From Tribonema minus (taxonomy: Eukaryota; Sar; Xanthophyceae; Tribonematales; Tribonemataceae), in assembly GCA_017506865.1 (NCBI GenBank), contig JAFCMP010000076.1:1-64000 (forward strand): 64,000 bases of DNA. Direction: 5' to 3'. Both the position numbers and the translations under genes were made by a program. The notes beneath the pieces are model-generated. The model had not been told where the DNA came from and did not search any database. It saw nothing but the letters and a program-made list of their open reading frames with translations. Of the stretch, positions 22,454 through 63,800 are shown in pieces. Numbering within the stretch: position 1 is the stretch's first letter; every line of letters starts with the position of its first letter.

Positions 22454-22870
22454 ATGGTGTGGGGGGAGGAACGTGCTGCTATAAGTCGTGAGGAGGCATT
22501 GGAAATTCACAACTGGCTTGTCACAGTTGGACGAAATCCATACAGCAGCTGGCAGCGAATGGAGGAAATGAAGGGATCGCAGATTGAGCCGCAGTTCTGG
22601 AGTGTATGCGATGCATTGGAGCACTTCTATACAGACAGCGAGCGCCTAATTGGTGTTCAGCGACGACTCAAAACGCGTCTAGCGGAGACAGAAGAAAGGG
22701 TCGCTGAGGAAAACCTGAGGGTATTGCAGCTGCAAGATCGTACAGTGAGCAGCCAGGAGGCAGCGGTAGCGGCAAGGCTGGCGGAGCTACACATGCAGCA
22801 GCAGATGCAAGAGCGGCTACAGCAACAGCAGCAGTTACACCAGCTGCAACGGGTCAGCGTCGGCGCCTGA
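22454..22870 (+). CDS. Gag-like coiled-coil protein of the retroelement (left)
   Basis: A 138-residue ORF starts at an ATG in good context (AAAATGG) and ends at TGA 22868-22870. Residues 1-60 are mixed helical sequence with several Trp. From about residue 65 to the end it is a heptad-like Glu/Arg/Leu and then Gln-rich coiled coil. There is no CCHC zinc knuckle. Its position right before Pol, overlapping the open +1 frame, supports a Gag-like structural role. No sequence family is recognised. Initiation at an upstream GTG is less likely. Confidence 0.55.
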   Translation: MVWGEERAAISREEALEIHNWLVTVGRNPYSSWQRMEEMKGSQIEPQFWSVCDALEHFYTDSERLIGVQRRLKTRLAETEERVAEENLRVLQLQDRTVSSQEAAVAARLAELHMQQQMQERLQQQQQLHQLQRVSVGA

Positions 22871-22874
22871 CACG

Positions 22875-25800
22875 TTGAAGTTTGAGTTTGGAGCACTGCC
22901 TGCAGATTTGCTCGACGCGCCACTCACACAGGATGGAGAGCCGGGGCCAAAGTTTGTGCTTGGAACAGGAGTAGGTGCGGAGAAAGTACAAGTACAACCA
23001 CCCATTGACCTTGACAATGAGCAGGATGAGCGTGTTGTGAGCGTGGAAGCACTGCCGAAAACAGGCTGGGAGACTGACGTGTCATGTCCGTGTTGGCGCA
23101 CTGACAAGACTGTTGAAGTAGAGTCAGTGTACTCTGATTCCGATGCAAGCAGCGCAGAGTTGGTGGATGACTATGTGCAAGCAACTGACTGGTCGGAAAG
23201 TGATGATGATGACACAGACTTGACTTCTGATTCAGAAGCAGACTACCCCTCAGACAGTGAGACAGAGATTTGTGTAGCTGCCTCAGAGCTCACTGAGAAC
23301 AGGCGCTTGGGCTGCTACAACAAAAAAGGGGGGTCAGACTGGGTGCTGGAGAATTGCCATGTCGATCGCTGGTCTCAGATCTCGGCAGTTGAACATGGTG
23401 AGTACCCAAACGTAGAGCAAATGCTGGTACCTAACCTAAAGGTGGTAGACCTGGGGGGGGGATTGGCAGCTCCGTAATGGGTGCAATAATGGGGGGAGCA
23501 CAAGTGGCAATGGCAGTAGAGACCAGTGAAGACTTCGCCAAAGTTTTTCGTGCATCTCACCCCACGGTTCCTACGCTTATAGGGGACTACACCTCTGATG
23601 AAGTGTGGGACAAGATAGTCGAGCTGGACCCAGATCTGGTGACCGCAAGCACCACACCACAGCTGGTGCACAAGGCTGTACAGAAGGGAGTGAAGCGACT
23701 CTTAATTGAAAATGCGCCAGAGCTGGGGCTGACTGTCAGTGGAGTTCTCGCGTTGGAGGCAGCGCTCAACGCAGGTTATCACATATTGTCATTTGAGCTC
23801 TCGGGTGAAAACCTGGGGTTCCCTAACCTGCGCAACCGAGTGTTCCTCCTCATGATGAAGGGTGATCAGAGTGTGGTGGACGCGCTCCAGCGCGTGGCTC
23901 ACAAGGTGGAGCGCGCAAAGCATAAGGACAAGCACGAACTGCAGATCACCCCCATGGAGATGTGGGGTGTCACTAACCCAGTGTTTGTGCTGCCACCTCG
24001 CAATGCCACAGCGCGCTGGACGCATGAGATGACGCGCAGTGTACCAACCCTTGTTGCGCGTCACTTTCATGCATTCCGTGAACCATCAGACAGTGACATG
24101 CGAAAGGGGGACACGCAGTACAATGCCACTCAACGCTATGCTCCATCGCAGGCAGACTTACTGCGGGCCAATGGTCTGTGGTGGCTCAAGGTGCCACCAG
24201 GCATCACACAGTCAACACTGGCGAAGGGCAGTGGTCAGATACTGCTTGCCCCAGTGATGTCATTCATCATTCGCACTCTGCGTACAGAGCCGGTGCTGTT
24301 CGACTTGCAGCGCCAGCAGGCACCCATACCGCCTCGCATGATCGAGGATGGTTTGTTTGTGCAGACCTTGGGTCCCTATGACCTCCCTGACGACCACCCA
24401 CAGGGAGGCACCTCGGTGGGGCCTGTCCTCGTATCACAACACCTGCAAGGCATGCCTTTCCTGCGCAAGTTGAAGTACAAGCAGGGCTTCGCGATGGGGG
24501 CGGCGAACCACAACCGGGAGCCAGGGCCGCAGCCCTCCACAGCAGACCACGCCAAGAAGACCGCCTGCGAGACCAGCGCGCAAGCATCAGCCAGCAACTC
24601 CACGAGCGAAGGTGACGAGACAAGCACCGACAGCGGCGAAGCCGGAGGTGATGACGAGGATGGCCATCGTAGCGGCGGGGCGCGCACGCCAGGTAAGCTG
24701 ACAATGATGGAAGCATACACCATAGCGATGGACCATGCAGATGAGCGCTTTGGCAAGAATCAAGTGTCAGACAACCCTGAGTTGGCCGCTGCCGCCGAAA
24801 CAGAACTACCAGGATGGGACAACATTGTGTTGGTTGCAGAGCAAGGGGCTGCTTTGCAAAAACAAGCTACTGTCTATATAGCCAAGAAGTACCCCGTCAC
24901 AGAAGCTACAGCGGATGGAATTGCAGTTGTGGTGACTTGGACCGGTGACGCACCACCGGGGAACTATGTGCTCGAAGGGGCAATTGACCCACGGGGGCAT
25001 TGGGCTGTGCGGCGGCAGCGAGTGTTGGTAGAGGAGGGTATGCACACCAGCACTATAAATCTCACTATTGTCAAGCGTACCGGTAAGCTGAAACCGGGCG
25101 TCAAGCTTGGGCACTTGCACTTGCTAGATGAGGATTTGTGGAAGCGACAATCACACAGATGTGAAGTGGAAACCACACGGAGCTTAATAGCACTGACTTC
25201 AGTACAGGAGAAAGACGAGAAACAGCAGTTGCTAGAAAAGCGCTTGACGGCGATCAAAGCGAGGATAGCACAGATAGAGCGCAATGATCGTCTAGCCACG
25301 GTTTGCTTCATGGTTGCTGCTGGTTATGTGACACCAGCTGAGGCGCAAGCGGAGGCGCCAAATGTCATTTCGGGAACGGCAGCGGAGGCTCTGTTTGCTG
25401 AGAGCTGCGACGTAGGTTGGGGGTGTGGAGCACAGGTGAACCCTTCTTCAACGTCAACTACTTCAACTAGCAGCATGGCAGACAAAGTCAATTCGGCTAA
25501 GTTAAACCCAGTCTCTGATTCACGAGTGCAAACATTGAGTGTAGAGGAGCCCCACGCAGACAAGATAGTGCACAAGGCGCGGCCCCCCGCAGAACCGCCG
25601 CCGCCAAATGCTCCTTGCACTGCCGTCCCTGAAACTCACAATAAACCAAAAAAGGAAGCGAAGGTTGATGTAGAATCGCAACCTGGTGTTGGTGCTGACT
25701 CATCTGCAGCTCAAGAGTGTACGGACGATGAAGCAGTGCAACGGGCACGGGAGCTGGAATGGCTTGCCGCGTTCCGTGTTGGGGAATTGGAACACTTGAC

Positions 25801-28800
25801 GGAAGTTCAACGAATGCAGTTGACAGATTTGCTTCGCAAAATGGCACGTAAGGGGATCTTCTCACATGATGGTAGGCCAGGAAAAGTGTCGTTGGTCCGC
25901 CACCATATTGATGTTGGAGATGCTAGGCCTGTGCGTTCCAGATTGCGAAAGTATAGTCTGAAAGAACTTGAAGTTTTATGGAAGGAAATTGACTTCTTGT
26001 TGAAGAAGGGCGTGATTGAGCCGTCAAATTCACCCTGGAACTCTCCTCTCATGATAATACCAAAGCCAGACGGTGGTATGAGAGTTGTGCAGGATTTGAG
26101 GGCGGTTAATCAAGCAGTGAAAGAGCGTGGTGGCGGTCAGGATGGGTTTCCGCTGCCGCGCATAGATGAGGTGCACTCAGTGTTGAATGGCTCTGAGTGG
26201 TTTAGCTCTATGGACGCGGTTGCTGGATTTTGGCATGTTGAATTGGACAGAGAATCCAGACCAATAACGGCTTTTCAAACCAAATGGGGGTGCTATCAAT
26301 GGAAGGTGGGACCTATGGGGCTTATGAACATGCCATCTACTTTTCAGCGTCTAATGCAGCTTGCTATGGGGCATGATGCGCTGTGGGTGTACGCCCTGGT
26401 GTACATTGACGATATTCTGGTTTTTAGCAAAACCTTCAAAGAGCACATGAAGCACTTGGAGATAGTGTTGAGCCGACTGCTCTCAGTAGGCATAAAGCTG
26501 AAGCCGTCCAAGTGTCACTTCGCCATGCGGGAGGTCAAATTTCTGGGTCATGTCGTAGATGCCCAGGGCAAGCGCGTTGATCCATCAAAAGTAGAGGCAA
26601 TTGAGAAGATACCTTTGCCCTCTGACCTTCATGATGTGCGTTCCTTTTTGTGTATGGCAGCGTACTACAGGCAGTATATCTCCCATTTTTCAACAATCAC
26701 GGAGCCCCTGGTCAACCTTACTCGCAAAGGTGTACCGTTTGAGCTCTCGGATGATTGCATTGCTGCGTGGCAGGTGCTCAAGGAGGCCTTGAAGACATCC
26801 CCTGTTTTAGCACATCCCGATTTGAAAGGCATCCTCAATGGCTCAGTCAAGTTGGTTTTGCAGACTGATGCTTCTGACTATGGACTGGGAGCGGTGTTAA
26901 CGCAGATATGCCCCACCAACGGAGAGCACCCGATAGGATACTATAGTCGTACTTTGAAAAGTGCTGAACGCAATTATGGTACTTATGATAGGGAAGCGCT
27001 AGCAGCAATGGAAGGAGTTCACTACTTCAGACAGTTTTTGCACAATGGTAACACGTTCATCCTACAAACTGACCACTCTGCATTGGCGCACTTGATGGGT
27101 GGCTCAGAACCGCGCACCAAGCGGCAGGAACGTTACATATCAGAACTGCAAGAATACAACATGGACATTGTGCACAGGCCTGGTAGAGAGAATGGTAATG
27201 CTGACGCCCTCTCGCGTATCAGGGATGGCACTTTCGTCACAGTGTCTGCAGGTGTGGCCTTTTCTAATGATGCAGCGACGACCTCGCAGCATGGGGGGAT
27301 ACAGCGGCCAGCACCTGTTCCGGGAAATTTTTCGTCTGTTGTTTTGCCTGCCGCTTGTGAATGTGACGATGCAGCTGGAGTGAAGATAGTGTCAATCAAC
27401 ATCACAGCAAGCAGGGTGGCTCAGCTGTTCCCAGAAGATGGCGACGAGAACATGGACCTTGAGGCTGAATTGGAGGATGGCCATGAAGACATCAACAACA
27501 AGGATACAGGTGGCAAAGTAGATGGTAATAGGCAACGACATCGCGCCGTGTTTGAAGCGGGCGACTTGGTATCTTCGCTGAGCAAGGATGCGGTATTGGG
27601 GAAAGTAGCGAAGTACTTGACTACTAGTCTAAGAGCAGGTGGTCCCCCACATGGCCTCTCACCTAGAGAAGTTGAGGATGCTCGCGCATTTGAGCGCGCT
27701 GGCTACTACATGCGCAATGGGAGAATGCATTTTGCTGCTGGTGGCAGGTCCCACAAGACAGGCACAGACTTGCTAGTGGTACCGAAGTCACTAAGAGAGC
27801 GCGTGTTTGAGGAATGTCATGATGGTGCGATTGGTGGAGGTCACAGTGGCTTTGCTCGCACATATGACAAAGTGAGGCGCAGGTACTTCTGGCCTGGCAT
27901 GTATTCTGATGTTTTCAAGTGGGTGCTGACTTGCCTGGCATGCCAAAAGCGCAAGTCCAAGCGCGATATGCGTGTGCGTGTGCATGGATTTGGAGATGTA
28001 GATCTACAGCATGCGTTTCAATTGGTAGGCTTCGATATTGTGGGACCGCTGCCCAAGACTGCCAGGGGCAACACTTTCATTTTGGTCTTCACGGATTACC
28101 TGACTAGGTGGCCGGAGGCCTTTGCGATACCTGACAAATCAGCAGTCACTGTTGCGCGTGTCATAGTCAGTGAGATCATACCAAGGCACGGGTGCCCTCA
28201 AATGTTCCTCTGTGACAATGCTAAGGAGTTCAGGGGGTTGCTGATGAAAGAGCTAACTAGGTTAGTGGGCATTGAGCAGCGCTTCACATCCCCTTACCAC
28301 CCTGCATGCAATGGTCTCACTGAGCGCACCAACGGCACGCTTGTCAACCTTCTGGCAATGATGGTAGAAGACAATCAGAAGAATTGGGACTCAGTCTTAC
28401 CCATGGCTCTTTTCAACCACAGAGCTTGCACAAACACGACGTATGGCATGTCACCGTTTCGCATGTTATATGGGCGTGAGCCCCTGCTGCCGTTCGAGGC
28501 AATGTTGGGAGATCTTCGTGCACCTGAGCTGTCGCGCAGGTGGAAGTCAGCAGCTGAGCACCTGCACGTAATTCATGAGCTCATCAAGGAAGGACACAGG
28601 CTGGTACAGGTGTCACTACAAGAGCAGGAGGAGAGGCTACGGGCGGCGGCAGCGCAGGAGAAAGGGTTTGCTCGTCGCTTTGAACCTGGAGATCATGTTC
28701 TTGTACACTATCCGCCCGTTCGTAAGGGGCTGAGTAAGAAATTGAAAGCAGAACGCTGGTTGGGTCCATTTGTAGTAGAAAGGCGAATACCTGGGCTAGA

Positions 28801-29353
28801 CACATATGTTTTGCGGGCGACGCATGCAGGGCAAGTCATGTTGAAGTACATCCACTGTAGTAGGCTGAAGCTGGCTACTGAGCGACAACTTGAAGTAGCG
28901 GTGCCGCCTCCACCAGATGTACACTTGCCTACGCGTGATCAACAGCATGTGCCCCGTGACCCGGCTGACAGGCCATCAGCGGCTGCAGCACCAGCACCAC
29001 GTGAAAAATGCCCATATGCTAAAGGTGACATCATAAGAGTTTCATTGGCTGCATGGGTAGATGGCTCTGATGATAGTTGTGATGGCTATGTGGTACACAT
29101 TGCTTCCAATGGCACGGTGGAATTCATATGCCCGATTGATGCAGCAGAGCCGGATGAGTTGACGGCTCAGCTGCCCTCATTTGCAAACCGCTATAAAGGT
29201 CATGCGACTAAAGGCGACAAGCATCTGGCACGTCTCATCTATACACTGCATCATTCGTCACCGTTCCTTGGCGAGCGCACTGGCAGTTTCTGGCAGCCCC
29301 TTGCAACAGCACCAGCGGTTCGGTTCTGCAATACCATAGTATATGTCAATTAG
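22875..29353 (+). pseudogene. Gypsy Pol polyprotein, left copy, broken by a one-base deletion
   Basis: This is the same polyprotein as on the minus strand at 32915-39394. Here the G run after GACCT (23453-23461) has nine G, against ten in the right copy. The frame leaves the methyltransferase motif I after DLGGG and stops at 23475-23477. A second ORF then starts at ATG 23477 and runs open to 29353 through all other domains. YIDD is at 26402-26413, the RNase H Asp at 26867 and integrase D, D, E codons at 28034, 28214 and 28322. The stop overlaps the next ATG (TAATG). That could in principle allow reinitiation, but the simplest reading is a frameshifted copy or a homopolymer error. Confidence 0.85.
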
Positions 29354-29447
29354 AAATATCCAAGTCTTGTTGTTTGGCAGCGTTCCCTACCCCGCGCCTT
29401 GCGTGCCGCATGTTTCAGGAGGAGTGTCATATGAGGTGAAGACGGAG

Positions 29448-29561
29448 TCTTGGCGCGCAGCGGCGGGCGTTCTACATGCGCATCTACCGGTGACGAGATA
29501 TTCAACTCCGTCTTGGCGCGCAGCGGCGGGCGTTCTACATGCGCATCTACCGGTGACGAGA
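29448..29561 (+). repeat. 63-bp tandem duplication after Pol (left)
   Basis: A 51-base block beginning TCTTGGCGCGCAGCGGCGGG and ending GGTGACGAGA occurs at 29448-29498 and again at 29511-29561, period 63. It lies about 95 bases after the Pol stop. The partner is at 32707-32820. Confidence 0.9.
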
Positions 29562-29688
29562 CTTTCAAGCGAAGCACCTTTCAACTTCAACCACCAGCTC
29601 AACTTCAGCAAGGGCGCTTCAACTTCAGCTATTGGCCTAGCGCAAGTGTGAGTGAGTTACCACACGGCGCAGTGCGTGCTCCAGCGAG

Positions 29689-29987
29689 TTGCTGAGCACT
29701 GCCAAGGCAAGGGCAGCCTCAATCAGTCGCTGAGCGCTGCCCCAGGCCCGGAGGCGGATTGGGGATTAAGCTATTTGGGACGCACTCATGCGAGCTGCTG
29801 AGCGCTGTCAACTTAACGGGCCTGGGCGGACTAGCGTTGCATAGTATGGCCTAGCTACGTCGTGCAAAGCAAGTTGCTGAGCAGTGCCAAGCGCTTGGGG
29901 GCGTACTGCGGGAGTCAGGACGGGCGCGCATGCGAGCTGCTGCGCCGCGCGGAGTGTGCGGTGCTCCTCACGTTGCTGAGCACTGCT
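29689..29987 (+). repeat. Dispersed 15-base motif YYGCTGAGCRSTGYY, five copies (left)
   Basis: Copies start at 29689, 29727, 29795, 29874 and 29973. They share GCTGAGC with conserved TG after it, all in the same direction, at spacings of 38 to 99 bases. The intervening DNA is unrelated by eye. The partner array is at 32281-32579. Confidence 0.65.
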
Positions 29988-30138
29988 ACGGCTTGGAACA
30001 GGGGACGTGGCCATCGTAGCCGCCGACTGGGGGGGGGGGCGTCATGGGGGGATGGGTCGTCAGCCTGGTTGGTAGCGCGCGGGAACTCGGGCCGTATGCC
30101 ATGAGACTGACCGCAGCCGAACTTCCAGCCTCTTTCCT

Positions 30139-30257
30139 GTAACGTTCAAGAAACGCGGGGAGAGTAGGCGCCAGGTGTATCGTAGCAGGTGCATAGTCGC
30201 GTCTACCAGCGCGCACCTTAAGGCACCGCGTTATGTGACCTATAACAGGGCGTGCAT
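30139..30257. other. 119-base segment present only in the left arm
   Basis: Both arms share CTTCCAGCCTCTTTCCT and GACACGGGGTGTA. Between them the left arm has 119 bases and the right arm only two (32128-32129). I see no terminal repeats or target duplication on the block. It could be an insertion on the left, a deletion on the right, or an allelic difference. Confidence 0.85.
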
Positions 30258-30270
30258 GACACGGGGTGTA

Positions 30271-30350
30271 GCGCGAGTGCCTCAAGCGGGAGCACAGTAG
30301 TGTGGGGGTTGCGTGAGTGCCTCAAGCGGGGGCGCAGTAGTGTGGAGTGC
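30271..30350 (+). repeat. 40-bp tandem repeat, two copies (left)
   Basis: GCGYGAGTGCCTCAAGCGGG with RGCRCAGTAGTGTGG repeats at 30271 and 30311. The right arm has the same two units plus ten extra bases that look like part of a third unit, so copy number differs between arms. Confidence 0.8.
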
Positions 30351-31178
30351 TGGTTTGCATCGCAAGTTGTGCGTTTGTTTGCTAGTGTAGGCAATTACCG
30401 GGGCGTATGTAAGTGGTGCAGCCTCTTTGACGGGTGCAGCATTAGAGGCATATAGCCACACACTGGCAGTACTCCCCTCTGTTATTTCAGTACCATGACG
30501 TCAACATATGGTGCTGCTCTGCCGCTGCCGGTGTCGCCGCCACCGTGTAGCCGCAGCCGCCGCCTGGAGGGGTAGTATCTGCTTGTGATGCGCAATCAGG
30601 TGTTGCAATCGCATCGACAACACTTGGCGCGCAGTAAAGTGGTGCCAGGCGTGCTGTATCTGCTGAGGATTTGCATTGCTTATTTGCGGTAGGCCGGGCT
30701 TGCAGTAGCTCCTTGCACGCTTCACTGTTATTTGATCCAGACGGTCGATGACGTCATGGATGGGGGCGTATGTCGTGAAGCGGCCGCCATTAGCGTGCAT
30801 TAGGATGATAGATGTGTGTTGGCAGCACGTAGCACGCCTTGAGGTGGCCAGGGCTCAATTGGAGAGTTGTGCCCGTATTTGTCAACAGTCACCTCAAGTT
30901 GAATGGCAGCAGCGCTCAGCTGCATTTGTGCTTGTGTTCGCCTAATGATCAGAAACCGATCTACATGCTTTAAGGAAGGCTTTTGTCTGCTTTTGCACCG
31001 CCACGTTTACCGGCGCCATGGCACTTGGTATCTGGAGAGAGTAGTTGCAAGCGCCGCTGCTTTCTCAAGGCAACATTCGCAGGCTTTAGGCTGTAACTGG
31101 AGCAATGGAGCAGTTCCTCACTCCTGAAGAGTCAACACTGTGAGCTGGGACACCACCCAGTCACCACAATGGCGATCT

Positions 31179-31197: not shown

Positions 31198-32030
31198 AGA
31201 TCGCCATTGTGGTGACTGGGTGGTGTCCCAGCTCACAGTGTTGACTCTTCAGGAGTGAGGAACTGCTCCATTGCTCCAGTTACAGCCCAAAGCCTGCGAA
31301 TGTTGCCTTGAGAAAGCAGCGGCGCTTGCAACTACTCCTCCAGATACCAAGTGCCATGGCGCCGGTAAACGTGGCGGTGCAAAAGCAGACAAAAGCCTTC
31401 CTTAAAGCATGTAGATCGGTTTCTGATCATTAGGCGAACACAAGCACAAATGCAGCTGAGCGCTGCTGCCATTCAACTTGAGGTGACTGTTGACAAATAC
31501 GGGCACAACTCTCCAATTGAGCCCTGGCCACCTCAAGGCGTGCTACGTGCTGCCAACACACATCTATCATCCTAATGCACGCTAATGGCGGCCGCTTCAC
31601 GACATACGCCCCCATCCATGACGTCATCGACCGTCTGGATCAAATAACAGTGAAGCGTGCAAGGAGCTACTGCAAGCCCGGCCTACCGCAAATAAGCAAT
31701 GCAAATCCTCAGCAGATACAGCACGCCTGGCACCACTTTACTGCGCGCCAAGTGTTGTCGATGCGATTGCAACACCTGATTGCGCATCACAAGCAGATAC
31801 TACCCCTCCAGGCGGCGGCTGCGGCTACACGGTGGCGGCGACACCGGCAGCGGCAGAGCAGCACCATATGTTGACGTCATGGTACTGAAATAACAGAGGG
31901 GAGTACTGCCAGTGTGTGGCTATATGCCTCTAATGCTGCACCCGTCAAAGAGGCTGCACCACTTACATACGCCCCGGTAATTGCCTACACTAGCAAACAA
32001 ACGCACAACTTGCGATGCAAACCAGCACTC

Positions 32031-32114
32031 CACACTACTGCGCCCCCGCTTGAGGCACTCACGCAACCCCCACACTACTGTGCTCCCGCTTGAGGCACTC
32101 GCGCAACCCCCCAC
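32031..32114 (-). repeat. 40-bp tandem repeat with partial third unit (right)
   Basis: Same units as at 30271-30350 read on the minus strand, plus a ten-base extension (GTGGGGGGTT type) at the outer side. This shows copy-number change between the arms. Confidence 0.75.
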
Positions 32115-32280
32115 TACACCCCGTGTCAGAGGAAAGAGGCTGGAAGTTCGGCTGCGGTCAGTCTCATGGCATACGGCCCGAGTTCCCGCGCGCTACCAAC
32201 CAGGCTGACGACCCATCCCCCCATGACGCCCCCCCCCCCAGTCGGCGGCTACGATGGCCACGTCCCCTGTTCCAAGCCGT

Positions 32281-32579
32281 AGCAGTGCTCAGCAACGTGA
32301 GGAGCACCGCACACTCCGCGCGGCGCAGCAGCTCGCATGCGCGCCCGTCCTGACTCCCGCAGTACGCCCCCAAGCGCTTGGCACTGCTCAGCAACTTGCT
32401 TTGCACGACGTAGCTAGGCCATACTATGCAACGCTAGTCCGCCCAGGCCCGTTAAGTTGACAGCGCTCAGCAGCTCGCATGAGTGCGTCCCAAATAGCTT
32501 AATCCCCAATCCGCCTCCGGGCCTGGGGCAGCGCTCAGCGACTGATTGAGGCTGCCCTTGCCTTGGCAGTGCTCAGCAA
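32281..32579 (-). repeat. Dispersed 15-base motif YYGCTGAGCRSTGYY, five copies (right)
   Basis: Mirror of the array at 29689-29987, with no differences noticed. Confidence 0.65.
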
Positions 32580-32706
32580 CTCGCTGGAGCACGCACTGCG
32601 CCGTGTGGTAACTCACTCACACTTGCGCTAGGCCAATAGCTGAAGTTGAAGCGCCCTTGCTGAAGTTGAGCTGGTGGTTGAAGTTGAAAGGTGCTTCGCT
32701 TGAAAG

Positions 32707-32820
32707 TCTCGTCACCGGTAGATGCGCATGTAGAACGCCCGCCGCTGCGCGCCAAGACGGAGTTGAATATCTCGTCACCGGTAGATGCGCATGTAGAACG
32801 CCCGCCGCTGCGCGCCAAGA
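32707..32820 (-). repeat. 63-bp tandem duplication after Pol (right)
   Basis: Mirror of 29448-29561. Confidence 0.9.
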
Positions 32821-32914
32821 CTCCGTCTTCACCTCATATGACACTCCTCCTGAAACATGCGGCACGCAAGGCGCGGGGTAGGGAACGCTGCCAAACAACA
32901 AGACTTGGATATTT

Positions 32915-35900
32915 CTAATTGACATATACTATGGTATTGCAGAACCGAACCGCTGGTGCTGTTGCAAGGGGCTGCCAGAAACTGCCAGTGCGCTCGCCAA
33001 GGAACGGTGACGAATGATGCAGTGTATAGATGAGACGTGCCAGATGCTTGTCGCCTTTAGTCGCATGACCTTTATAGCGGTTTGCAAATGAGGGCAGCTG
33101 AGCCGTCAACTCATCCGGCTCTGCTGCATCAATCGGGCATATGAATTCCACCGTGCCATTGGAAGCAATGTGTACCACATAGCCATCACAACTATCATCA
33201 GAGCCATCTACCCATGCAGCCAATGAAACTCTTATGATGTCACCTTTAGCATATGGGCATTTTTCACGTGGTGCTGGTGCTGCAGCCGCTGATGGCCTGT
33301 CAGCCGGGTCACGGGGCACATGCTGTTGATCACGCGTAGGCAAGTGTACATCTGGTGGAGGCGGCACCGCTACTTCAAGTTGTCGCTCAGTAGCCAGCTT
33401 CAGCCTACTACAGTGGATGTACTTCAACATGACTTGCCCTGCATGCGTCGCCCGCAAAACATATGTGTCTAGCCCAGGTATTCGCCTTTCTACTACAAAT
33501 GGACCCAACCAGCGTTCTGCTTTCAATTTCTTACTCAGCCCCTTACGAACGGGCGGATAGTGTACAAGAACATGATCTCCAGGTTCAAAGCGACGAGCAA
33601 ACCCTTTCTCCTGCGCTGCCGCCGCCCGTAGCCTCTCCTCCTGCTCTTGTAGTGACACCTGTACCAGCCTGTGTCCTTCCTTGATGAGCTCATGAATTAC
33701 GTGCAGGTGCTCAGCTGCTGACTTCCACCTGCGCGACAGCTCAGGTGCACGAAGATCTCCCAACATTGCCTCGAACGGCAGCAGGGGCTCACGCCCATAT
33801 AACATGCGAAACGGTGACATGCCATACGTCGTGTTTGTGCAAGCTCTGTGGTTGAAAAGAGCCATGGGTAAGACTGAGTCCCAATTCTTCTGATTGTCTT
33901 CTACCATCATTGCCAGAAGGTTGACAAGCGTGCCGTTGGTGCGCTCAGTGAGACCATTGCATGCAGGGTGGTAAGGGGATGTGAAGCGCTGCTCAATGCC
34001 CACTAACCTAGTTAGCTCTTTCATCAGCAACCCCCTGAACTCCTTAGCATTGTCACAGAGGAACATTTGAGGGCACCCGTGCCTTGGTATGATCTCACTG
34101 ACTATGACACGCGCAACAGTGACTGCTGATTTGTCAGGTATCGCAAAGGCCTCCGGCCACCTAGTCAGGTAATCCGTGAAGACCAAAATGAAAGTGTTGC
34201 CCCTGGCAGTCTTGGGCAGCGGTCCCACAATATCGAAGCCTACCAATTGAAACGCATGCTGTAGATCTACATCTCCAAATCCATGCACACGCACACGCAT
34301 ATCGCGCTTGGACTTGCGCTTTTGGCATGCCAGGCAAGTCAGCACCCACTTGAAAACATCAGAATACATGCCAGGCCAGAAGTACCTGCGCCTCACTTTG
34401 TCATATGTGCGAGCAAAGCCACTGTGACCTCCACCAATCGCACCATCATGACATTCCTCAAACACGCGCTCTCTTAGTGACTTCGGTACCACTAGCAAGT
34501 CTGTGCCTGTCTTGTGGGACCTGCCACCAGCAGCAAAATGCATTCTCCCATTGCGCATGTAGTAGCCAGCGCGCTCAAATGCGCGAGCATCCTCAACTTC
34601 TCTAGGTGAGAGGCCATGTGGGGGACCACCTGCTCTTAGACTAGTAGTCAAGTACTTCGCTACTTTCCCCAATACCGCATCCTTGCTCAGCGAAGATACC
34701 AAGTCGCCCGCTTCAAACACGGCGCGATGTCGTTGCCTATTACCATCTACTTTGCCACCTGTATCCTTGTTGTTGATGTCTTCATGGCCATCCTCCAATT
34801 CAGCCTCAAGGTCCATGTTCTCGTCGCCATCTTCTGGGAACAGCTGAGCCACCCTGCTTGCTGTGATGTTGATTGACACTATCTTCACTCCAGCTGCATC
34901 GTCACATTCACAAGCGGCAGGCAAAACAACAGACGAAAAATTTCCCGGAACAGGTGCTGGCCGCTGTATCCCCCCATGCTGCGAGGTCGTCGCTGCATCA
35001 TTAGAAAAGGCCACACCTGCAGACACTGTGACGAAAGTGCCATCCCTGATACGCGAGAGGGCGTCAGCATTACCATTCTCTCTACCAGGCCTGTGCACAA
35101 TGTCCATGTTGTATTCTTGCAGTTCTGATATGTAACGTTCCTGCCGCTTGGTGCGCGGTTCTGAGCCACCCATCAAGTGCGCCAATGCAGAGTGGTCAGT
35201 TTGTAGGATGAACGTGTTACCATTGTGCAAAAACTGTCTGAAGTAGTGAACTCCTTCCATTGCTGCTAGCGCTTCCCTATCATAAGTACCATAATTGCGT
35301 TCAGCACTTTTCAAAGTACGACTATAGTATCCTATCGGGTGCTCTCCGTTGGTGGGGCATATCTGCGTTAACACCGCTCCCAGTCCATAGTCAGAAGCAT
35401 CAGTCTGCAAAACCAACTTGACTGAGCCATTGAGGATGCCTTTCAAATCGGGATGTGCTAAAACAGGGGATGTCTTCAAGGCCTCCTTGAGCACCTGCCA
35501 CGCAGCAATGCAATCATCCGAGAGCTCAAACGGTACACCTTTGCGAGTAAGGTTGACCAGGGGCTCCGTGATTGTTGAAAAATGGGAGATATACTGCCTG
35601 TAGTACGCTGCCATACACAAAAAGGAACGCACATCATGAAGGTCAGAGGGCAAAGGTATCTTCTCAATTGCCTCTACTTTTGATGGATCAACGCGCTTGC
35701 CCTGGGCATCTACGACATGACCCAGAAATTTGACCTCCCGCATGGCGAAGTGACACTTGGACGGCTTCAGCTTTATGCCTACTGAGAGCAGTCGGCTCAA
35801 CACTATCTCCAAGTGCTTCATGTGCTCTTTGAAGGTTTTGCTAAAAACCAGAATATCGTCAATGTACACCAGGGCGTACACCCACAGCGCATCATGCCCC

Positions 35901-38900
35901 ATAGCAAGCTGCATTAGACGCTGAAAAGTAGATGGCATGTTCATAAGCCCCATAGGTCCCACCTTCCATTGATAGCACCCCCATTTGGTTTGAAAAGCCG
36001 TTATTGGTCTGGATTCTCTGTCCAATTCAACATGCCAAAATCCAGCAACCGCGTCCATAGAGCTAAACCACTCAGAGCCATTCAACACTGAGTGCACCTC
36101 ATCTATGCGCGGCAGCGGAAACCCATCCTGACCGCCACCACGCTCTTTCACTGCTTGATTAACCGCCCTCAAATCCTGCACAACTCTCATACCACCGTCT
36201 GGCTTTGGTATTATCATGAGAGGAGAGTTCCAGGGTGAATTTGACGGCTCAATCACGCCCTTCTTCAACAAGAAGTCAATTTCCTTCCATAAAACTTCAA
36301 GTTCTTTCAGACTATACTTTCGCAATCTGGAACGCACAGGCCTAGCATCTCCAACATCAATATGGTGGCGGACCAACGACACTTTTCCTGGCCTACCATC
36401 ATGTGAGAAGATCCCCTTACGTGCCATTTTGCGAAGCAAATCTGTCAACTGCATTCGTTGAACTTCCGTCAAGTGTTCCAATTCCCCAACACGGAACGCG
36501 GCAAGCCATTCCAGCTCCCGTGCCCGTTGCACTGCTTCATCGTCCGTACACTCTTGAGCTGCAGATGAGTCAGCACCAACACCAGGTTGCGATTCTACAT
36601 CAACCTTCGCTTCCTTTTTTGGTTTATTGTGAGTTTCAGGGACGGCAGTGCAAGGAGCATTTGGCGGCGGCGGTTCTGCGGGGGGCCGCGCCTTGTGCAC
36701 TATCTTGTCTGCGTGGGGCTCCTCTACACTCAATGTTTGCACTCGTGAATCAGAGACTGGGTTTAACTTAGCCGAATTGACTTTGTCTGCCATGCTGCTA
36801 GTTGAAGTAGTTGACGTTGAAGAAGGGTTCACCTGTGCTCCACACCCCCAACCTACGTCGCAGCTCTCAGCAAACAGAGCCTCCGCTGCCGTTCCCGAAA
36901 TGACATTTGGCGCCTCCGCTTGCGCCTCAGCTGGTGTCACATAACCAGCAGCAACCATGAAGCAAACCGTGGCTAGACGATCATTGCGCTCTATCTGTGC
37001 TATCCTCGCTTTGATCGCCGTCAAGCGCTTTTCTAGCAACTGCTGTTTCTCGTCTTTCTCCTGTACTGAAGTCAGTGCTATTAAGCTCCGTGTGGTTTCC
37101 ACTTCACATCTGTGTGATTGTCGCTTCCACAAATCCTCATCTAGCAAGTGCAAGTGCCCAAGCTTGACGCCCGGTTTCAGCTTACCGGTACGCTTGACAA
37201 TAGTGAGATTTATAGTGCTGGTGTGCATACCCTCCTCTACCAACACTCGCTGCCGCCGCACAGCCCAATGCCCCCGTGGGTCAATTGCCCCTTCGAGCAC
37301 ATAGTTCCCCGGTGGTGCGTCACCGGTCCAAGTCACCACAACTGCAATTCCATCCGCTGTAGCTTCTGTGACGGGGTACTTCTTGGCTATATAGACAGTA
37401 GCTTGTTTTTGCAAAGCAGCCCCTTGCTCTGCAACCAACACAATGTTGTCCCATCCTGGTAGTTCTGTTTCGGCGGCAGCGGCCAACTCAGGGTTGTCTG
37501 ACACTTGATTCTTGCCAAAGCGCTCATCTGCATGGTCCATCGCTATGGTGTATGCTTCCATCATTGTCAGCTTACCTGGCGTGCGCGCCCCGCCGCTACG
37601 ATGGCCATCCTCGTCATCACCTCCGGCTTCGCCGCTGTCGGTGCTTGTCTCGTCACCTTCGCTCGTGGAGTTGCTGGCTGATGCTTGCGCGCTGGTCTCG
37701 CAGGCGGTCTTCTTGGCGTGGTCTGCTGTGGAGGGCTGCGGCCCTGGCTCCCGGTTGTGGTTCGCCGCCCCCATCGCGAAGCCCTGCTTGTACTTCAACT
37801 TGCGCAGGAAAGGCATGCCTTGCAGGTGTTGTGATACGAGGACAGGCCCCACCGAGGTGCCTCCCTGTGGGTGGTCGTCAGGGAGGTCATAGGGACCCAA
37901 GGTCTGCACAAACAAACCATCCTCGATCATGCGAGGCGGTATGGGTGCCTGCTGGCGCTGCAAGTCGAACAGCACCGGCTCTGTACGCAGAGTGCGAATG
38001 ATGAATGACATCACTGGGGCAAGCAGTATCTGACCACTGCCCTTCGCCAGTGTTGACTGTGTGATGCCTGGTGGCACCTTGAGCCACCACAGACCATTGG
38101 CCCGCAGTAAGTCTGCCTGCGATGGAGCATAGCGTTGAGTGGCATTGTACTGCGTGTCCCCCTTTCGCATGTCACTGTCTGATGGTTCACGGAATGCATG
38201 AAAGTGACGCGCAACAAGGGTTGGTACACTGCGCGTCATCTCATGCGTCCAGCGCGCTGTGGCATTGCGAGGTGGCAGCACAAACACTGGGTTAGTGACA
38301 CCCCACATCTCCATGGGGGTGATCTGCAGTTCGTGCTTGTCCTTATGCTTTGCGCGCTCCACCTTGTGAGCCACGCGCTGGAGCGCGTCCACCACACTCT
38401 GATCACCCTTCATCATGAGGAGGAACACTCGGTTGCGCAGGTTAGGGAACCCCAGGTTTTCACCCGAGAGCTCAAATGACAATATGTGATAACCTGCGTT
38501 GAGCGCTGCCTCCAACGCGAGAACTCCACTGACAGTCAGCCCCAGCTCTGGCGCATTTTCAATTAAGAGTCGCTTCACTCCCTTCTGTACAGCCTTGTGC
38601 ACCAGCTGTGGTGTGGTGCTTGCGGTCACCAGATCTGGGTCCAGCTCGACTATCTTGTCCCACACTTCATCAGAGGTGTAGTCCCCTATAAGCGTAGGAA
38701 CCGTGGGGTGAGATGCACGAAAAACTTTGGCGAAGTCTTCACTGGTCTCTACTGCCATTGCCACTTGTGCTCCCCCCATTATTGCACCCATTACGGAGCT
38801 GCCAATCCCCCCCCCCAGGTCTACCACCTTTAGGTTAGGTACCAGCATTTGCTCTACGTTTGGGTACTCACCATGTTCAACTGCCGAGATCTGAGACCAG

Positions 38901-39394
38901 CGATCGACATGGCAATTCTCCAGCACCCAGTCTGACCCCCCTTTTTTGTTGTAGCAGCCCAAGCGCCTGTTCTCAGTGAGCTCTGAGGCAGCTACACAAA
39001 TCTCTGTCTCACTGTCTGAGGGGTAGTCTGCTTCTGAATCAGAAGTCAAGTCTGTGTCATCATCATCACTTTCCGACCAGTCAGTTGCTTGCACATAGTC
39101 ATCCACCAACTCTGCGCTGCTTGCATCGGAATCAGAGTACACTGACTCTACTTCAACAGTCTTGTCAGTGCGCCAACACGGACATGACACGTCAGTCTCC
39201 CAGCCTGTTTTCGGCAGTGCTTCCACGCTCACAACACGCTCATCCTGCTCATTGTCAAGGTCAATGGGTGGTTGTACTTGTACTTTCTCCGCACCTACTC
39301 CTGTTCCAAGCACAAACTTTGGCCCCGGCTCTCCATCCTGTGTGAGTGGCGCGTCGAGCAAATCTGCAGGCAGTGCTCCAAACTCAAACTTCAA
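32915..39394 (-). CDS. Gypsy Pol polyprotein: C5-methyltransferase-like domain, RT, RNase H, integrase
   Basis: 2159 residues counted from TTG 39394; there is no nearby ATG, so entry is probably by +1 frameshift from the gag-like ORF. Residues 80-135 are acidic. Residues 188-470 follow C5-cytosine methyltransferases: motif I DLGGGIG (192-198), AVE (214-216), motif IV position TTPQ (260-263) where PCQ is expected, ENA (279-281), FPNLRNRVFLL (316-326), motif IX-like RYAPSQADLL (421-430) and motif X-like GSGQILLAPV (451-460). The catalytic Cys is absent. NLTIVKRTGKLKPG (729-742) resembles the strand segment often found between protease and RT. RT spans about 1010-1220 with YIDD at 1177-1180. RNase H has D1332. 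Integrase has HHCC zinc-finger residues H1649 and H1657, D1721, D1781 and E1817 (D,D35E), and GPF at 1964-1966. About 90 residues of unknown type end the protein. I see no aspartic protease DTG/DSG in context and no chromodomain. Confidence 0.9.
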   Translation of the reverse strand: MKFEFGALPADLLDAPLTQDGEPGPKFVLGTGVGAEKVQVQPPIDLDNEQDERVVSVEALPKTGWETDVSCPCWRTDKTVEVESVYSDSDASSAELVDDYVQATDWSESDDDDTDLTSDSEADYPSDSETEICVAASELTENRRLGCYNKKGGSDWVLENCHVDRWSQISAVEHGEYPNVEQMLVPNLKVVDLGGGIGSSVMGAIMGGAQVAMAVETSEDFAKVFRASHPTVPTLIGDYTSDEVWDKIVELDPDLVTASTTPQLVHKAVQKGVKRLLIENAPELGLTVSGVLALEAALNAGYHILSFELSGENLGFPNLRNRVFLLMMKGDQSVVDALQRVAHKVERAKHKDKHELQITPMEMWGVTNPVFVLPPRNATARWTHEMTRSVPTLVARHFHAFREPSDSDMRKGDTQYNATQRYAPSQADLLRANGLWWLKVPPGITQSTLAKGSGQILLAPVMSFIIRTLRTEPVLFDLQRQQAPIPPRMIEDGLFVQTLGPYDLPDDHPQGGTSVGPVLVSQHLQGMPFLRKLKYKQGFAMGAANHNREPGPQPSTADHAKKTACETSAQASASNSTSEGDETSTDSGEAGGDDEDGHRSGGARTPGKLTMMEAYTIAMDHADERFGKNQVSDNPELAAAAETELPGWDNIVLVAEQGAALQKQATVYIAKKYPVTEATADGIAVVVTWTGDAPPGNYVLEGAIDPRGHWAVRRQRVLVEEGMHTSTINLTIVKRTGKLKPGVKLGHLHLLDEDLWKRQSHRCEVETTRSLIALTSVQEKDEKQQLLEKRLTAIKARIAQIERNDRLATVCFMVAAGYVTPAEAQAEAPNVISGTAAEALFAESCDVGWGCGAQVNPSSTSTTSTSSMADKVNSAKLNPVSDSRVQTLSVEEPHADKIVHKARPPAEPPPPNAPCTAVPETHNKPKKEAKVDVESQPGVGADSSAAQECTDDEAVQRARELEWLAAFRVGELEHLTEVQRMQLTDLLRKMARKGIFSHDGRPGKVSLVRHHIDVGDARPVRSRLRKYSLKELEVLWKEIDFLLKKGVIEPSNSPWNSPLMIIPKPDGGMRVVQDLRAVNQAVKERGGGQDGFPLPRIDEVHSVLNGSEWFSSMDAVAGFWHVELDRESRPITAFQTKWGCYQWKVGPMGLMNMPSTFQRLMQLAMGHDALWVYALVYIDDILVFSKTFKEHMKHLEIVLSRLLSVGIKLKPSKCHFAMREVKFLGHVVDAQGKRVDPSKVEAIEKIPLPSDLHDVRSFLCMAAYYRQYISHFSTITEPLVNLTRKGVPFELSDDCIAAWQVLKEALKTSPVLAHPDLKGILNGSVKLVLQTDASDYGLGAVLTQICPTNGEHPIGYYSRTLKSAERNYGTYDREALAAMEGVHYFRQFLHNGNTFILQTDHSALAHLMGGSEPRTKRQERYISELQEYNMDIVHRPGRENGNADALSRIRDGTFVTVSAGVAFSNDAATTSQHGGIQRPAPVPGNFSSVVLPAACECDDAAGVKIVSINITASRVAQLFPEDGDENMDLEAELEDGHEDINNKDTGGKVDGNRQRHRAVFEAGDLVSSLSKDAVLGKVAKYLTTSLRAGGPPHGLSPREVEDARAFERAGYYMRNGRMHFAAGGRSHKTGTDLLVVPKSLRERVFEECHDGAIGGGHSGFARTYDKVRRRYFWPGMYSDVFKWVLTCLACQKRKSKRDMRVRVHGFGDVDLQHAFQLVGFDIVGPLPKTARGNTFILVFTDYLTRWPEAFAIPDKSAVTVARVIVSEIIPRHGCPQMFLCDNAKEFRGLLMKELTRLVGIEQRFTSPYHPACNGLTERTNGTLVNLLAMMVEDNQKNWDSVLPMALFNHRACTNTTYGMSPFRMLYGREPLLPFEAMLGDLRAPELSRRWKSAAEHLHVIHELIKEGHRLVQVSLQEQEERLRAAAAQEKGFARRFEPGDHVLVHYPPVRKGLSKKLKAERWLGPFVVERRIPGLDTYVLRATHAGQVMLKYIHCSRLKLATERQLEVAVPPPPDVHLPTRDQQHVPRDPADRPSAAAAPAPREKCPYAKGDIIRVSLAAWVDGSDDSCDGYVVHIASNGTVEFICPIDAAEPDELTAQLPSFANRYKGHATKGDKHLARLIYTLHHSSPFLGERTGSFWQPLATAPAVRFCNTIVYVN

Positions 39395-39398
39395 CGTG

Positions 39399-39815
39399 TC
39401 AGGCGCCGACGCTGACCCGTTGCAGCTGGTGTAACTGCTGCTGTTGCTGTAGCCGCTCTTGCATCTGCTGCTGCATGTGTAGCTCCGCCAGCCTTGCCGC
39501 TACCGCTGCCTCCTGGCTGCTCACTGTACGATCTTGCAGCTGCAATACCCTCAGGTTTTCCTCAGCGACCCTTTCTTCTGTCTCCGCTAGACGCGTTTTG
39601 AGTCGTCGCTGAACACCAATTAGGCGCTCGCTGTCTGTATAGAAGTGCTCCAATGCATCGCATACACTCCAGAACTGCGGCTCAATCTGCGATCCCTTCA
39701 TTTCCTCCATTCGCTGCCAGCTGCTGTATGGATTTCGTCCAACTGTGACAAGCCAGTTGTGAATTTCCAATGCCTCCTCACGACTTATAGCAGCACGTTC
39801 CTCCCCCCACACCAT
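39399..39815 (-). CDS. Gag-like coiled-coil protein of the retroelement (right)
   Basis: 138 residues, identical in layout to the left copy: mixed helical N-terminus, then Glu/Arg/Leu heptads and a Gln-rich end, without a zinc knuckle. The Pol frame is open without a stop from 39499 (opposite the TAG at 22767-22769 of the left copy). The two frames therefore overlap by about 100 bases before the Gag stop, which fits +1 frameshifting as in Ty1 and Ty3. The slippery codon is not identified. Confidence 0.55.
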   Translation of the reverse strand: MVWGEERAAISREEALEIHNWLVTVGRNPYSSWQRMEEMKGSQIEPQFWSVCDALEHFYTDSERLIGVQRRLKTRLAETEERVAEENLRVLQLQDRTVSSQEAAVAARLAELHMQQQMQERLQQQQQLHQLQRVSVGA

Positions 39816-40534
39816 TTTGCTGCAAGCAAGAAGGCGTGCACGTGCTGTTGTTGAACCGATGCCGGCGTGCACCTACGGTTAGGCACGTCGCTGCACGCCA
39901 AAGCAGCGTTGCTGCTGCTGTTGCTGAACTGAAGGTGGCGCAGTAGTGTCGCTGTAGCTCGCCACAACTAGCACACGCCCCCAGCTGTTGAAATCCCGAA
40001 GCTCCGCCGACTGCCCCTGCTTGATGCTGCAGCACGAGCTCAACGGAGCTTGGCGCCGCGTACTGCTGCGCTAAGCCTTCCCAGAGTGTCTCCTGGCTGG
40101 CTAAAGACTGCCGAGATCTGCCATCATAAGCATGAGTTGCCTCACTGCTGTGTTTATGAACTACGCTAGAAACTACACACCTTACGACTCCTGAGACCTC
40201 AGTTCCACATGCCCATGTGCTGTGTGCAAACCCATATCAAATGAGAGCATAGCCAGCGGCCAAAGGCAGTGGAGAGAAGTCCTGTCAGGAAGTCATGGTG
40301 TTGGGTATCTTGTATAGAGCACAAAAGGCATGTCGTGTACCAAGCGGTTACACAACCCTACTTCAACAACGGCTCCACCTAGGGTCGCCTCACCACATCA
40401 ACAATTGACGCCTTTTGCCAGACCTTGAACTTGTGTCTTTAACATTGGGCAAAGCTTAATGTTGCCGTCAAACTTTGTCAGATGAATAACTGTGCAGCGA
40501 AGCTGTCACGTGCTGTTGTCTTTCTGTGCTGTAG
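39816..40534. other. 5' flank of the retroelement (right)
   Basis: Mirror of 21735-22453. No LTR, primer-binding site or exon was recognised. An exon upstream of the Smr-like exon was looked for and not found. Confidence 0.4.
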
Positions 40535-60800: not shown

Positions 60801-63800
60801 GTCAGGTAATGATGCCTTGGGTTTTAACATTCATGTTCATGTTTGGCTTTGCAGGCATCCGCACCCGCGGTGGAGCCACGCCGCTGCTGCTTGCAGTGAA
60901 GGGCGGTCACCGCGAGGTTGTGGCGGTGCTGCTGGGTGCAGGGGGGCTGGTTGACGCACCTGATGAGAGGGGAGTCACACCGCTCACAGCCGCAGCGGTG
61001 AGTGCCATGATTATCCAGGGGCATGTATACATGCATACTGGAGGAAGGTATATGGGTGTTCAACACATGCTGTCTGCCACGGCACATCTTATGGGGCCGG
61101 ATTTCGAGATGTGGCATGTGGCCTGTATGTATTCTACTTCATGTAGCATTTTGTGGCGTGCTGGCACTTGATTTAATTTACCGCAGCCTGTCACAGTTAT
61201 GCTGTGGGTTAGGTGGTGATGATCAACAAAGTTATCTATAGACGCGCAGGCGCTGGTGACGACTACTGCGTTGGGCACTGCAGCAGCTTGTTTGTTTGCT
61301 TGTTCACTGGATCGATTTCTGGAAATCCTGTTGCCTTGGTGATCCATGATGATATGAAGTGAGTAGACTCGTGTCAGCGCTGCACCAAGTGCGAATAGTC
61401 AGGTTTGGTTTAGGAAAAGAATTGGGATGAGTGTTCGCTTAGGTATCAGTACAGTACACCAGGAATATAATATTTGTTACAGGTCATGGTCCGACAAGCA
61501 GTTCAGGATTGCACCTGCTCTTGCAGAATGATCTGTACCAAAATTGATAGCAGCGTTGACAACTAGGTCTGGGTTTACAGTTGTGCGGCGCGAGTGGGGA
61601 TGTTTGCTGACGTCAGCAAGGTGGTAGGGTTAGGGTATGGGTAGGGGCAGGGTGGGGTTGGAATATTGGTTAGGGTAGGGTATCAGGGTGGTGAGCTGCT
61701 GCTATGCATTCATGTGCAGTCTTGTAAGCCAGACTGGTGGAAATGCTAACCTGGTGATGGCGACTTGCCACTATCAAGTCTCAAGTACTTCAACATATTC
61801 AGCATCACCGGCGCGAAGCTACTGATATAATAGGGTTAGCTTCGCATTGATGAATGTTGTGGCTGCCTAACATGCACATTGTGGCTGCGCTTGGCGTCCC
61901 AGGTTGGGGGAGATGCGGAGCTGCTGATGACACTCCTGGCGGCCAATCAGGCCAAGTGCTGGGCGGCGAGCAAGCCACAGCAGCAGCAGCAGCAGCGCGC
62001 ACCGCAGCGCACGAGCACTGCTGCAAAGAGGTCCAGGGTGGGGGGAGTGGGGGGCTGCGGGCTCTCTGCTTTACACGAGGCGGCTGCCGCAGGGCAGACA
62101 GCGTGTGTCGCGGCGCTGCTGCATGTGAGTCAAGGCTAGGGTTAGGGTTAGGGTTAGGGGTAGGGTTGGGGGTGAGCCTGGGATTAGGGTTAGACTGATG
62201 CAGGGGGCGGACAGTGCATATCCTGGCTCTGCTGCCTGTGAGCTCAGGCTATTGGTAGGGTGAGGAGTTAAGTTGACCGAGGATCAAAGCCAGCGTGATG
62301 CAGCGTGGAGAGCGCATGTCTATGCTCTGCTGTGTGTACGCTGTGTTCGTGCGTAGAGCCTAGAGGTAGAATCAGCCATGATGTGTGCATTTGAGTATGA
62401 GCAGGTCATTGCAATTGATTCGTAGGTATGATAGGGTTGGGGTTAGGGTAATCCTAACCCTATAGGCAGAAGCCTTCAACGGGTCATGGCAATCAGCTAG
62501 GTACCAAGTGTTGCGCGCTTGCAGCTGCAGAATCATCCAGACCGACACTATCGTGTCAGTGAAGATCATGTGAATGCATTGTTATAGTGTGAACTACCAG
62601 CTGGTGAATGCTATCATAGTTGAAGCTTCTGGACTGATCTGATGCTGATCTGATGAGGGCATACGTACATGTATTGCTGATAGTCATCTATGACTCCAGC
62701 ATCCAGTACACCCCGCTCTATCTAAATGTCTCAAGTTGCATGTGCTTGTACATTGCCATGGGGTGCTTACCCCTGCGTACACTAGTTTGTGCCATTTCGT
62801 CAACCATACCCATCTTTCCGACTTCATGCCAGGATTGTGTGCACGGCTTGTACATGGTCGTTGCCTGCTGCTCAGCACTGCTTTGAGGTTAGAACTGCGA
62901 CTTCATCTGGAAGTTGCAAGGAGGGTCACCTTTCAGATGGTCTGCGTAGTGCGCCTGTCTTGACTCCTCCTCTTCTACTGTGGGTGCTTATGATTCTGTT
63001 GTTGGTTTTCCTGTTGTCTGTTGCAGTATGGTATGAACCCATGCGCCAAGGAGCCCGGCCCGGAAGGTAGGTGCTGTGGCTGGATGAGTAGCCCTACAAC
63101 TTTGGGTAGAGGCAATCAAGCAGCTGAAAACCCCACTTGGTTGCTGGCGCACTTGATGCTTGCTGCTTGTTTGCATTTGGCCAATGAGCCGATGACTGCT
63201 GCATAGTGTACATGGTTTCATTTTTTCAGTCCTCAATGTGCTACAAAATATTGGTGGGGTCTAGACTAGTCGTGGATGGCTTACAGTGGTATTAGGCAGA
63301 TACCCCAGTACTCAGCTGTAAGTACCACTTTAAAGTGCGCTGATGTATGATGCATCGCGGAAAGACTGATGCCCGTGCTGCGTCCAGATTACACTGAGCA
63401 CTTCATGCGACGGTCAGCGAGACAGTTGAGGCGGTTATTGCAGTTAGGGTTGCAGGTCAGAGCATCATGGTGTTAGTTGTTGAGCCCACGGGGCTTTATA
63501 TATTGTCAGTTCCTTCCGGGGCTGTGTCAATTGAAAAACTTAAAAGTATAGCAAAACTTGGTGTTTGCCTTTACATCTTGATGCTTTGTTTTACACTTTC
63601 TGAGCAGCAGTCATTGTTGTCACAACGCGCATTAGGTGACGCGCCTGTTGCACCTGCTGGGTCATCCAATAAGACCCCATTCTGCTCGCGTTATCCACTG
63701 GCGGCACTTTGAGCACGTGCTTCTGTGATGCAGTCATTTGGGCCAATGTGCTTTCATCCGGCAGCTCAGCCACCATTATGTTTACCCGCCCCCTCCCCCC

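Follow-up and report, generated by a model that had tools for sequence, protein, structure and literature searches.

The 64,000-nucleotide stretch analyzed here (the window) comes from Tribonema minus, a xanthophyte, i.e., a photosynthetic stramenopile (genome assembly of 158 Mb in 554 contigs, with 92 PF00504 matches), and contains a Ty3/gypsy-type long terminal repeat (LTR) element with a C5-cytosine-methyltransferase-like domain upstream of its reverse transcriptase (RT). The element lies in a palindrome whose arms (positions 1 to 30138 and 32130 to 62267) are 99.993% identical and over 30,138 bases differ solely by two single-base homopolymer indels, a T at 3197 and a G at 23462. The palindrome may have arisen by a genuine inversion-duplication of recent date or may be a fold-back produced during assembly. 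In the right arm, BLAST comparison with locus L012 and with the LTR of a complete copy placed the element, which lacks its 5' part, at 31208 to 39420 on the minus strand, as for all parts of the element in this arm given below. Its open reading frame (ORF; 32915 to 39499, 2194 amino acids) encodes the methyltransferase-like domain, which is devoid of the catalytic loop (38000 to 38830), followed by three Pfam-defined parts: RT (RVT_1, 35714 to 36211, 113.8 bits), an RNase H-like domain (35111 to 35419), and an integrase (33965 to 34489, with H2C2 zinc binding at 34310 to 34489 and the rve core at 33965 to 34252). This order of Pol domains in one frame is that of a Ty3/gypsy LTR retrotransposon. 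The 3' LTR (31208 to 31605) is 99.5% identical to the 399-bp LTR of the complete copy. The left arm carries the same element on the plus strand (22848 to 31168, the left limit being the mirror of 39420), and its LTR (30770 to 31168, plus strand) matches the 399-bp LTR at 100%. A preliminary description of this DNA had cited a second copy of the motif IV region, at 23651 to 23662; since that copy is the other palindrome arm, the arms differing by two indels, it provides no independent support.

Similarity to the complete copy ended at 39420, and none of the matches listed upstream of this point was to a complete copy. Direct LTRs were present at both ends of the complete copies C511 and C292, and the window copy has the 3' LTR alone. 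An LTR-less element was considered and rejected, because the window copy merely lacks its 5' end. No aspartic protease was detected by Pfam in 500 upstream amino acids; L012 has a D-S-C motif and a retropepsin-like stretch (judged by eye). Open frames reach up to 3455 amino acids. The set of copies to which the window element belongs is called group A. A 979-bp repeat (39419 to 40397) starts exactly where the window element diverges from the complete copy. It has at least 20 near-identical full-length genomic copies, several of them no more than a few kilobases from a copy of the element's 3' block, which suggests a chimera with a short nonautonomous family sharing the LTR.

The segment upstream of RT was confirmed as a true homologue of C5-cytosine methyltransferases. 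Aligned by hhalign with nine other C5-methyltransferases, the window domain gave a probability of 97.6% (E value, 3.6e-12), compared with 0.0 to 0.8% for 20 shuffled sequences, 0.5% for RT, and 0.2% for residues 520 to 850; the alignment stopped at residue 245 of 337. The earlier claim of a captured C5-methyltransferase-like domain in the Ty3/gypsy-type Pol of another algal lineage is thereby borne out. By the motif consensus of these enzymes, we identified motif I, the S-adenosylmethionine (SAM)-binding loop VVDLGGGIGSS (38795 to 38827), motif II (AVE), and motif III (GDYTS), in order as in the SAM-dependent Rossmann fold. Motif VI (LIENAPEL, 38543 to 38566) keeps Glu and Asn, both invariant in a 12-row alignment, with Val replaced by Ala; motif VIII (FPNLRNRVF, 38423 to 38449) has two Arg residues (R172 and R174) that are likewise invariant, and a motif X-like stretch lies at 38000 to 38047. 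The preliminary description had reported motifs I, II, VI, VIII, IX, and X in the right order and spacing upstream of RT; this order was recovered for I, II, VI, and VIII and for the motif X-like stretch, IX was unconfirmed, and the IV-to-VI interval falls short of the usual spacing by a gap of 25 codons. A predicted structure matched the methyltransferase fold (mean predicted local distance difference test score [pLDDT], 53.5), with strand 4 running directly into the next helix after the deletion. Prediction from the single sequence reached a mean pLDDT of 34.5, and among 78 pattern matches in viral contigs none was confirmed.

At motif IV, the window element reads Thr-Thr-Pro-Gln without Cys. 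The codons occupy 38606 to 38617, one base off the 38607 to 38618 given previously, and the deletion junction lies between 38615 and 38614. The nature of the loss became apparent from the sister elements of group B (62 to 69% identity). Where the window reads PDLVTAST-TPQLV, sister L039 reads PDLVTAST-RCEGASRQRFKPAGEIRVDAEANQV-TPKLV, and L040 is similar. L040 is also matched by the T. minus proteins P0003 (89.6% over 270 amino acids, with gaps) and P0005 (98% over 117 amino acids). All four sisters read (L038 to L041, the last frameshifted right there) have S-T-R-C-E, with Cys kept, and T-P about 23 residues farther on, the sister pattern being S-T-R-C-E, 22 residues, and T-P-K. Cys is likewise present in P0004, a JGI record whose identity to the window domain is 76% (ST-RCE...-TPQLV), and group C (L042 and L043) has GPPCTDF plus the same downstream TPLLV. 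Since the Cys loop of the sisters precedes the downstream T-P, 25 codons (75 bp, comprising Cys and loop) were deleted in frame in the window lineage, and the T-P-Q of the window, being the counterpart of that downstream T-P, never was motif IV. Thus, the catalytic Cys has indeed been lost, but mutation in place of a Pro-Cys-Gln, as first envisaged, is excluded. Sister elements do retain the Cys, as T-R-C in group B and P-P-C in group C; Pro, however, is absent at motif IV from the four group B loci and from P0004.

The 75 bp were absent from all 28 group A loci covering the site (29 were read), a number that includes the two arms of the window and C415, apparently one locus; C415 also seems to share the palindromic center of the window. 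Copy numbers in group A are lower bounds, as 121 of 221 candidates were scored. A divergent relic, L037 (96.6% DNA identity), also carries the deletion. C264, considered as another old copy because of its 80% protein identity, was rejected, as its DNA is 99.2% identical with indels.

Both complete copies examined have 399-bp LTRs that are identical at 399 of 399 positions, indicating that the element transposed after losing Cys. The C511 element measures 13,407 bp as taken from its ends. In both copies, a stretch starting with TGG stands behind the 5' LTR, and a G-rich tract precedes the 3' LTR; by eye, the insertions are bordered by short flanks that match (CAAA and CAG).

Groups A and B belong to one RT lineage: full-length RT rows were 91 to 92% identical between them, compared with 64% to the RT beside L042 and L043 and ∼37% to that of the group with GGPPCQ. 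Of the 30 loci in group A, 28 had RT downstream within 5.5 kb among the 130 RT rows compared; for group B, the count was 27 of 36. In a tree built without DNMT1, DNMT3, or DNMT5 references, A, B, and P0004 formed a clade (100/100) whose four members include the window as the one with the shortest end branch (0.12); support for uniting all retroelement methyltransferases was weak (88/88). P-P-C in group C, T-R-C in group B, and no Cys in group A seem, to judge from these sequences, to be successive steps in one lineage.

Selection was assessed as the ratio of nonsynonymous to synonymous divergence (dN/dS) by the Nei-Gojobori method, with dS between window and sisters near saturation. The ratio was 0.038 for RT (window versus group B1; dS, 1.31) and 0.166 for the methyltransferase domain (window versus L039; dS, 1.39). 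When the window, B1, and B2 were compared across 332 columns, unique residue changes numbered 22, 40, and 46, respectively, with 43 columns differing in all three, and unique synonymous codons numbered 37, 26, and 30 in the same order. With the fewest unique residue changes and the most unique synonymous codons, the window lineage as a whole is not relaxed.

From these results, we conclude, with a probability of roughly 0.7, that a captured methyltransferase lost its Cys loop by a 75-bp deletion, that the element has moved since, and that it cannot methylate covalently, so that retrotransposition proceeds without methylation of its own. According to this interpretation, a Ty3/gypsy-type LTR element of T. 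minus carries a captured C5-cytosine methyltransferase upstream of RT, from which an in-frame deletion excised the catalytic loop, Cys included, while sparing the SAM-binding Rossmann core. The homology, the deletion, its occurrence in each copy read across the site, and recent transposition of loop-less copies are demonstrated by the data. Lacking the nucleophile, the domain should be incapable of cytosine methylation by the known covalent mechanism, which together with the recent mobility would make retrotransposition independent of methylation by the element's own enzyme. The core may have been retained as a structural or binding part (for polyprotein folding or for binding of SAM or nucleic acid) instead of for catalysis, a proposal that we make tentatively.

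Several observations weigh against this interpretation. The PF00145 profile, recommended earlier as a check, scored 15.1 bits with the whole ORF and 21.2 bits with the window domain, below the 22-bit cutoff, which the sisters L039 (36.1 bits) and L040 (49.3 bits) exceed. The predicted structure, in addition to its mean pLDDT, falls below 50 at residues 1 to 37 and 197 to 309, and it was built on 14 sequences, true methyltransferases included. The variants unique to single group A copies (6 synonymous, 14 nonsynonymous, and 1 stop) fit neutrality (P = 0.62), so that the proposed dN/dS check speaks for constraint across the domain but not within the variation that followed the deletion. Between the window and L037, dN/dS was 0.50 at a dS of 0.054, partly owing to L037's own decay. 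Finally, methylation may be provided in trans by other elements.

The strongest alternative is that the domain is a passive remnant, functionless after a recent deletion, with too little time having passed for its loss. To this we assign a chance only slightly short of even, about the same as that of a retained noncatalytic role. Group A copies are nearly identical and vary among themselves in a neutral-like manner, and the oldest loop-less relic found is separated by a dS of 0.054, compared with ∼1.4 to the sisters; most of the observed constraint may therefore predate the deletion, and constraint of that age would explain all selection results. On the other hand, the deletion removed just the loop while frame and core were kept, and at least 30 group A loci compare with at least 36 Cys-bearing sister loci, neither being a strong argument.

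A retained role could also be regulatory: the pseudoenzyme might still fold, bind SAM or methylated or unmethylated DNA, and, during retrotransposition, lure away or regulate methyltransferases of the host or of sister elements, much as a DNMT3L encoded by a mobile element would. We regard this as doubtful. DNMT3L is a host gene product that has the C5-methyltransferase fold without catalysis and binds DNMT3. The Tribonema domain shares with it the noncatalytic fold, and DNMT3L differs in being a host gene with DNMT3 as its partner. Unlikely, too, is that methylation is supplied in trans by Cys-bearing sisters or by the host itself, for instance through DNMT5, with the dead domain serving as a DNMT3L-like accessory subunit. 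Many Cys-bearing methyltransferase domains do exist in the same genome, a transcript of sister group B1 is on record (P0006 in EukProt, 93% identical to L038), and DNMT5 has been reported in T. minus (PMC10538959). However, nothing found favors a partner, and since group B has T-R-C rather than P-P-C, its own activity is uncertain. That the segment is Gag, protease, or spacer without methyltransferase ancestry would fit the PF00145 score under the cutoff and a protein database search in which none of 2221 candidates passed with the single window sequence, but is highly improbable given the hhalign result with its controls, the sisters above the cutoff, the fold match, and the motif order. Just as implausible is that the 75 bp are an intron of the sisters that the window lineage lost via an RNA intermediate: a GT...AG stretch can be drawn in the L039 segment, but by manual count it spans 71 bases, whose removal would break the frame. 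Moreover, the 75-bp segment of the sisters is an open frame that includes the Cys and can be aligned with the catalytic loop found in GPPC elements.

Capture of methyltransferases by retroelements is already known, and what sets the Tribonema element apart is deletion of the catalytic loop. Methyltransferase-bearing retroelements have been described in Symbiodinium and Klebsormidium (PMC5890265). Like KnitGypsy-Dnmt3 of Klebsormidium nitens, the Tribonema element has a C5-methyltransferase domain within the Pol ORF of an algal Gypsy-type element and exists in several copies. KnitGypsy-Dnmt3, however, is reported to have conserved key functional residues, a Ka/Ks of <0.2, and DIRS-like repeats (de Mendoza et al. 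2018, PMC5890265), whereas the Tribonema element lacks motif IV and the catalytic loop, has direct 399-bp LTRs in the two complete copies studied, and resides in a stramenopile. SymbioDIRS-Dnmt3, reported to methylate CG (PMC5890265), and SymbioLINE-Dnmt of Symbiodinium likewise combine retroelement and methyltransferase in many copies within one genome, but belong to other retroelement classes. Streptophytes and dinoflagellates were named again for such elements in PMC12344493. T. minus itself has been reported to possess DNMT5, HELLS, a CDCA7-like protein, and a DNMT4-clade protein (PMC10538959), and the N4/N6-type methyltransferase reported from an Ectocarpus DNA transposon (PMC12477816) is a different case. 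The open-licence PMC literature, represented mostly by titles and abstract beginnings, yielded no report of a retroelement methyltransferase without the catalytic Cys or of methyltransferase-bearing elements in Tribonema, and the excerpts of PMC12344493 and PMC9998398 name neither a Cys-less nor a Tribonema element. Stramenopiles would thus join the two lineages that de Mendoza et al. 2018 described, no further one having been found in the same literature. The solved sequences nearest to a profile of the window and two sisters were those of DNMT2/TRDMT1 (PDB 9hgm and 1g55; E values, 2.1e-5 and 2.8e-5), a tRNA methyltransferase with P-P-C; this distant likeness does not imply descent of the Tribonema domain from DNMT2.

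With P-P-C, T-R-C, and a deleted loop (the last recently mobile) in one genome and one RT lineage, the Tribonema elements form a natural series that bears on why retroelements capture DNA methyltransferases. It permits asking directly if transposition depends on the methyltransferase and if what is kept is methylation or mere binding.

Beyond these groups, PF00145 exceeded its cutoff at at least 123 places in the genome (123 of 378 candidates scored), host genes included. Many of these matches lie in long ORFs, and at least 24 of them are followed downstream by an RT like that of the window, a pattern that suggests that methyltransferase-bearing retroelements have radiated in stramenopiles. 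At the loci read, motif IV was GGPPCQ (L044), PPCT (L045, L048, L049, and L005 to L007), APC (L046), or SSC (L047), and the open frames of groups E, F, G, and H (L045, L046, L047, and L006) measured 3370, 3501, 3177, and 959 amino acids, respectively. L047 (on C404) and its near-identical matches make up another abundant methyltransferase-bearing group; the one copy read has T-S-S-C and so departs from Pro-Cys as well. JGI and ENA records (P0007 to P0011) contain relatives of the D group, one of which (P0011) has an upstream D-S-G protease-like motif (by eye). The best PF00145 match, L001 (on C223), adjoins a frame resembling, by eye, a viral nucleotide kinase, and its surroundings are perhaps an inserted giant-virus segment.

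Among 29 loci, motif I is encoded by a tract with 10 G in 11 cases and with 9 G in 15. The right arm of the window has 10 and the left arm 9, which splits the frame there (1972 amino acids downstream). This variation is probably homopolymer noise, and the G run may be a slippery gag-pol junction. Telomere-like CCCTAA/TAGGGT repeats occur at 97 to 131 and 62137 to 62171, close to the two outer ends of the palindrome. Observed/expected CpG ratios were 0.69 in the element ORF and 0.69 to 0.74 in the flanking arm, compared with 0.64 to 0.99 at seven other element loci and 0.89 to 0.95 at three light-harvesting gene loci; the lower values may reflect 5-methylcytosine, of which they are not a demonstration.
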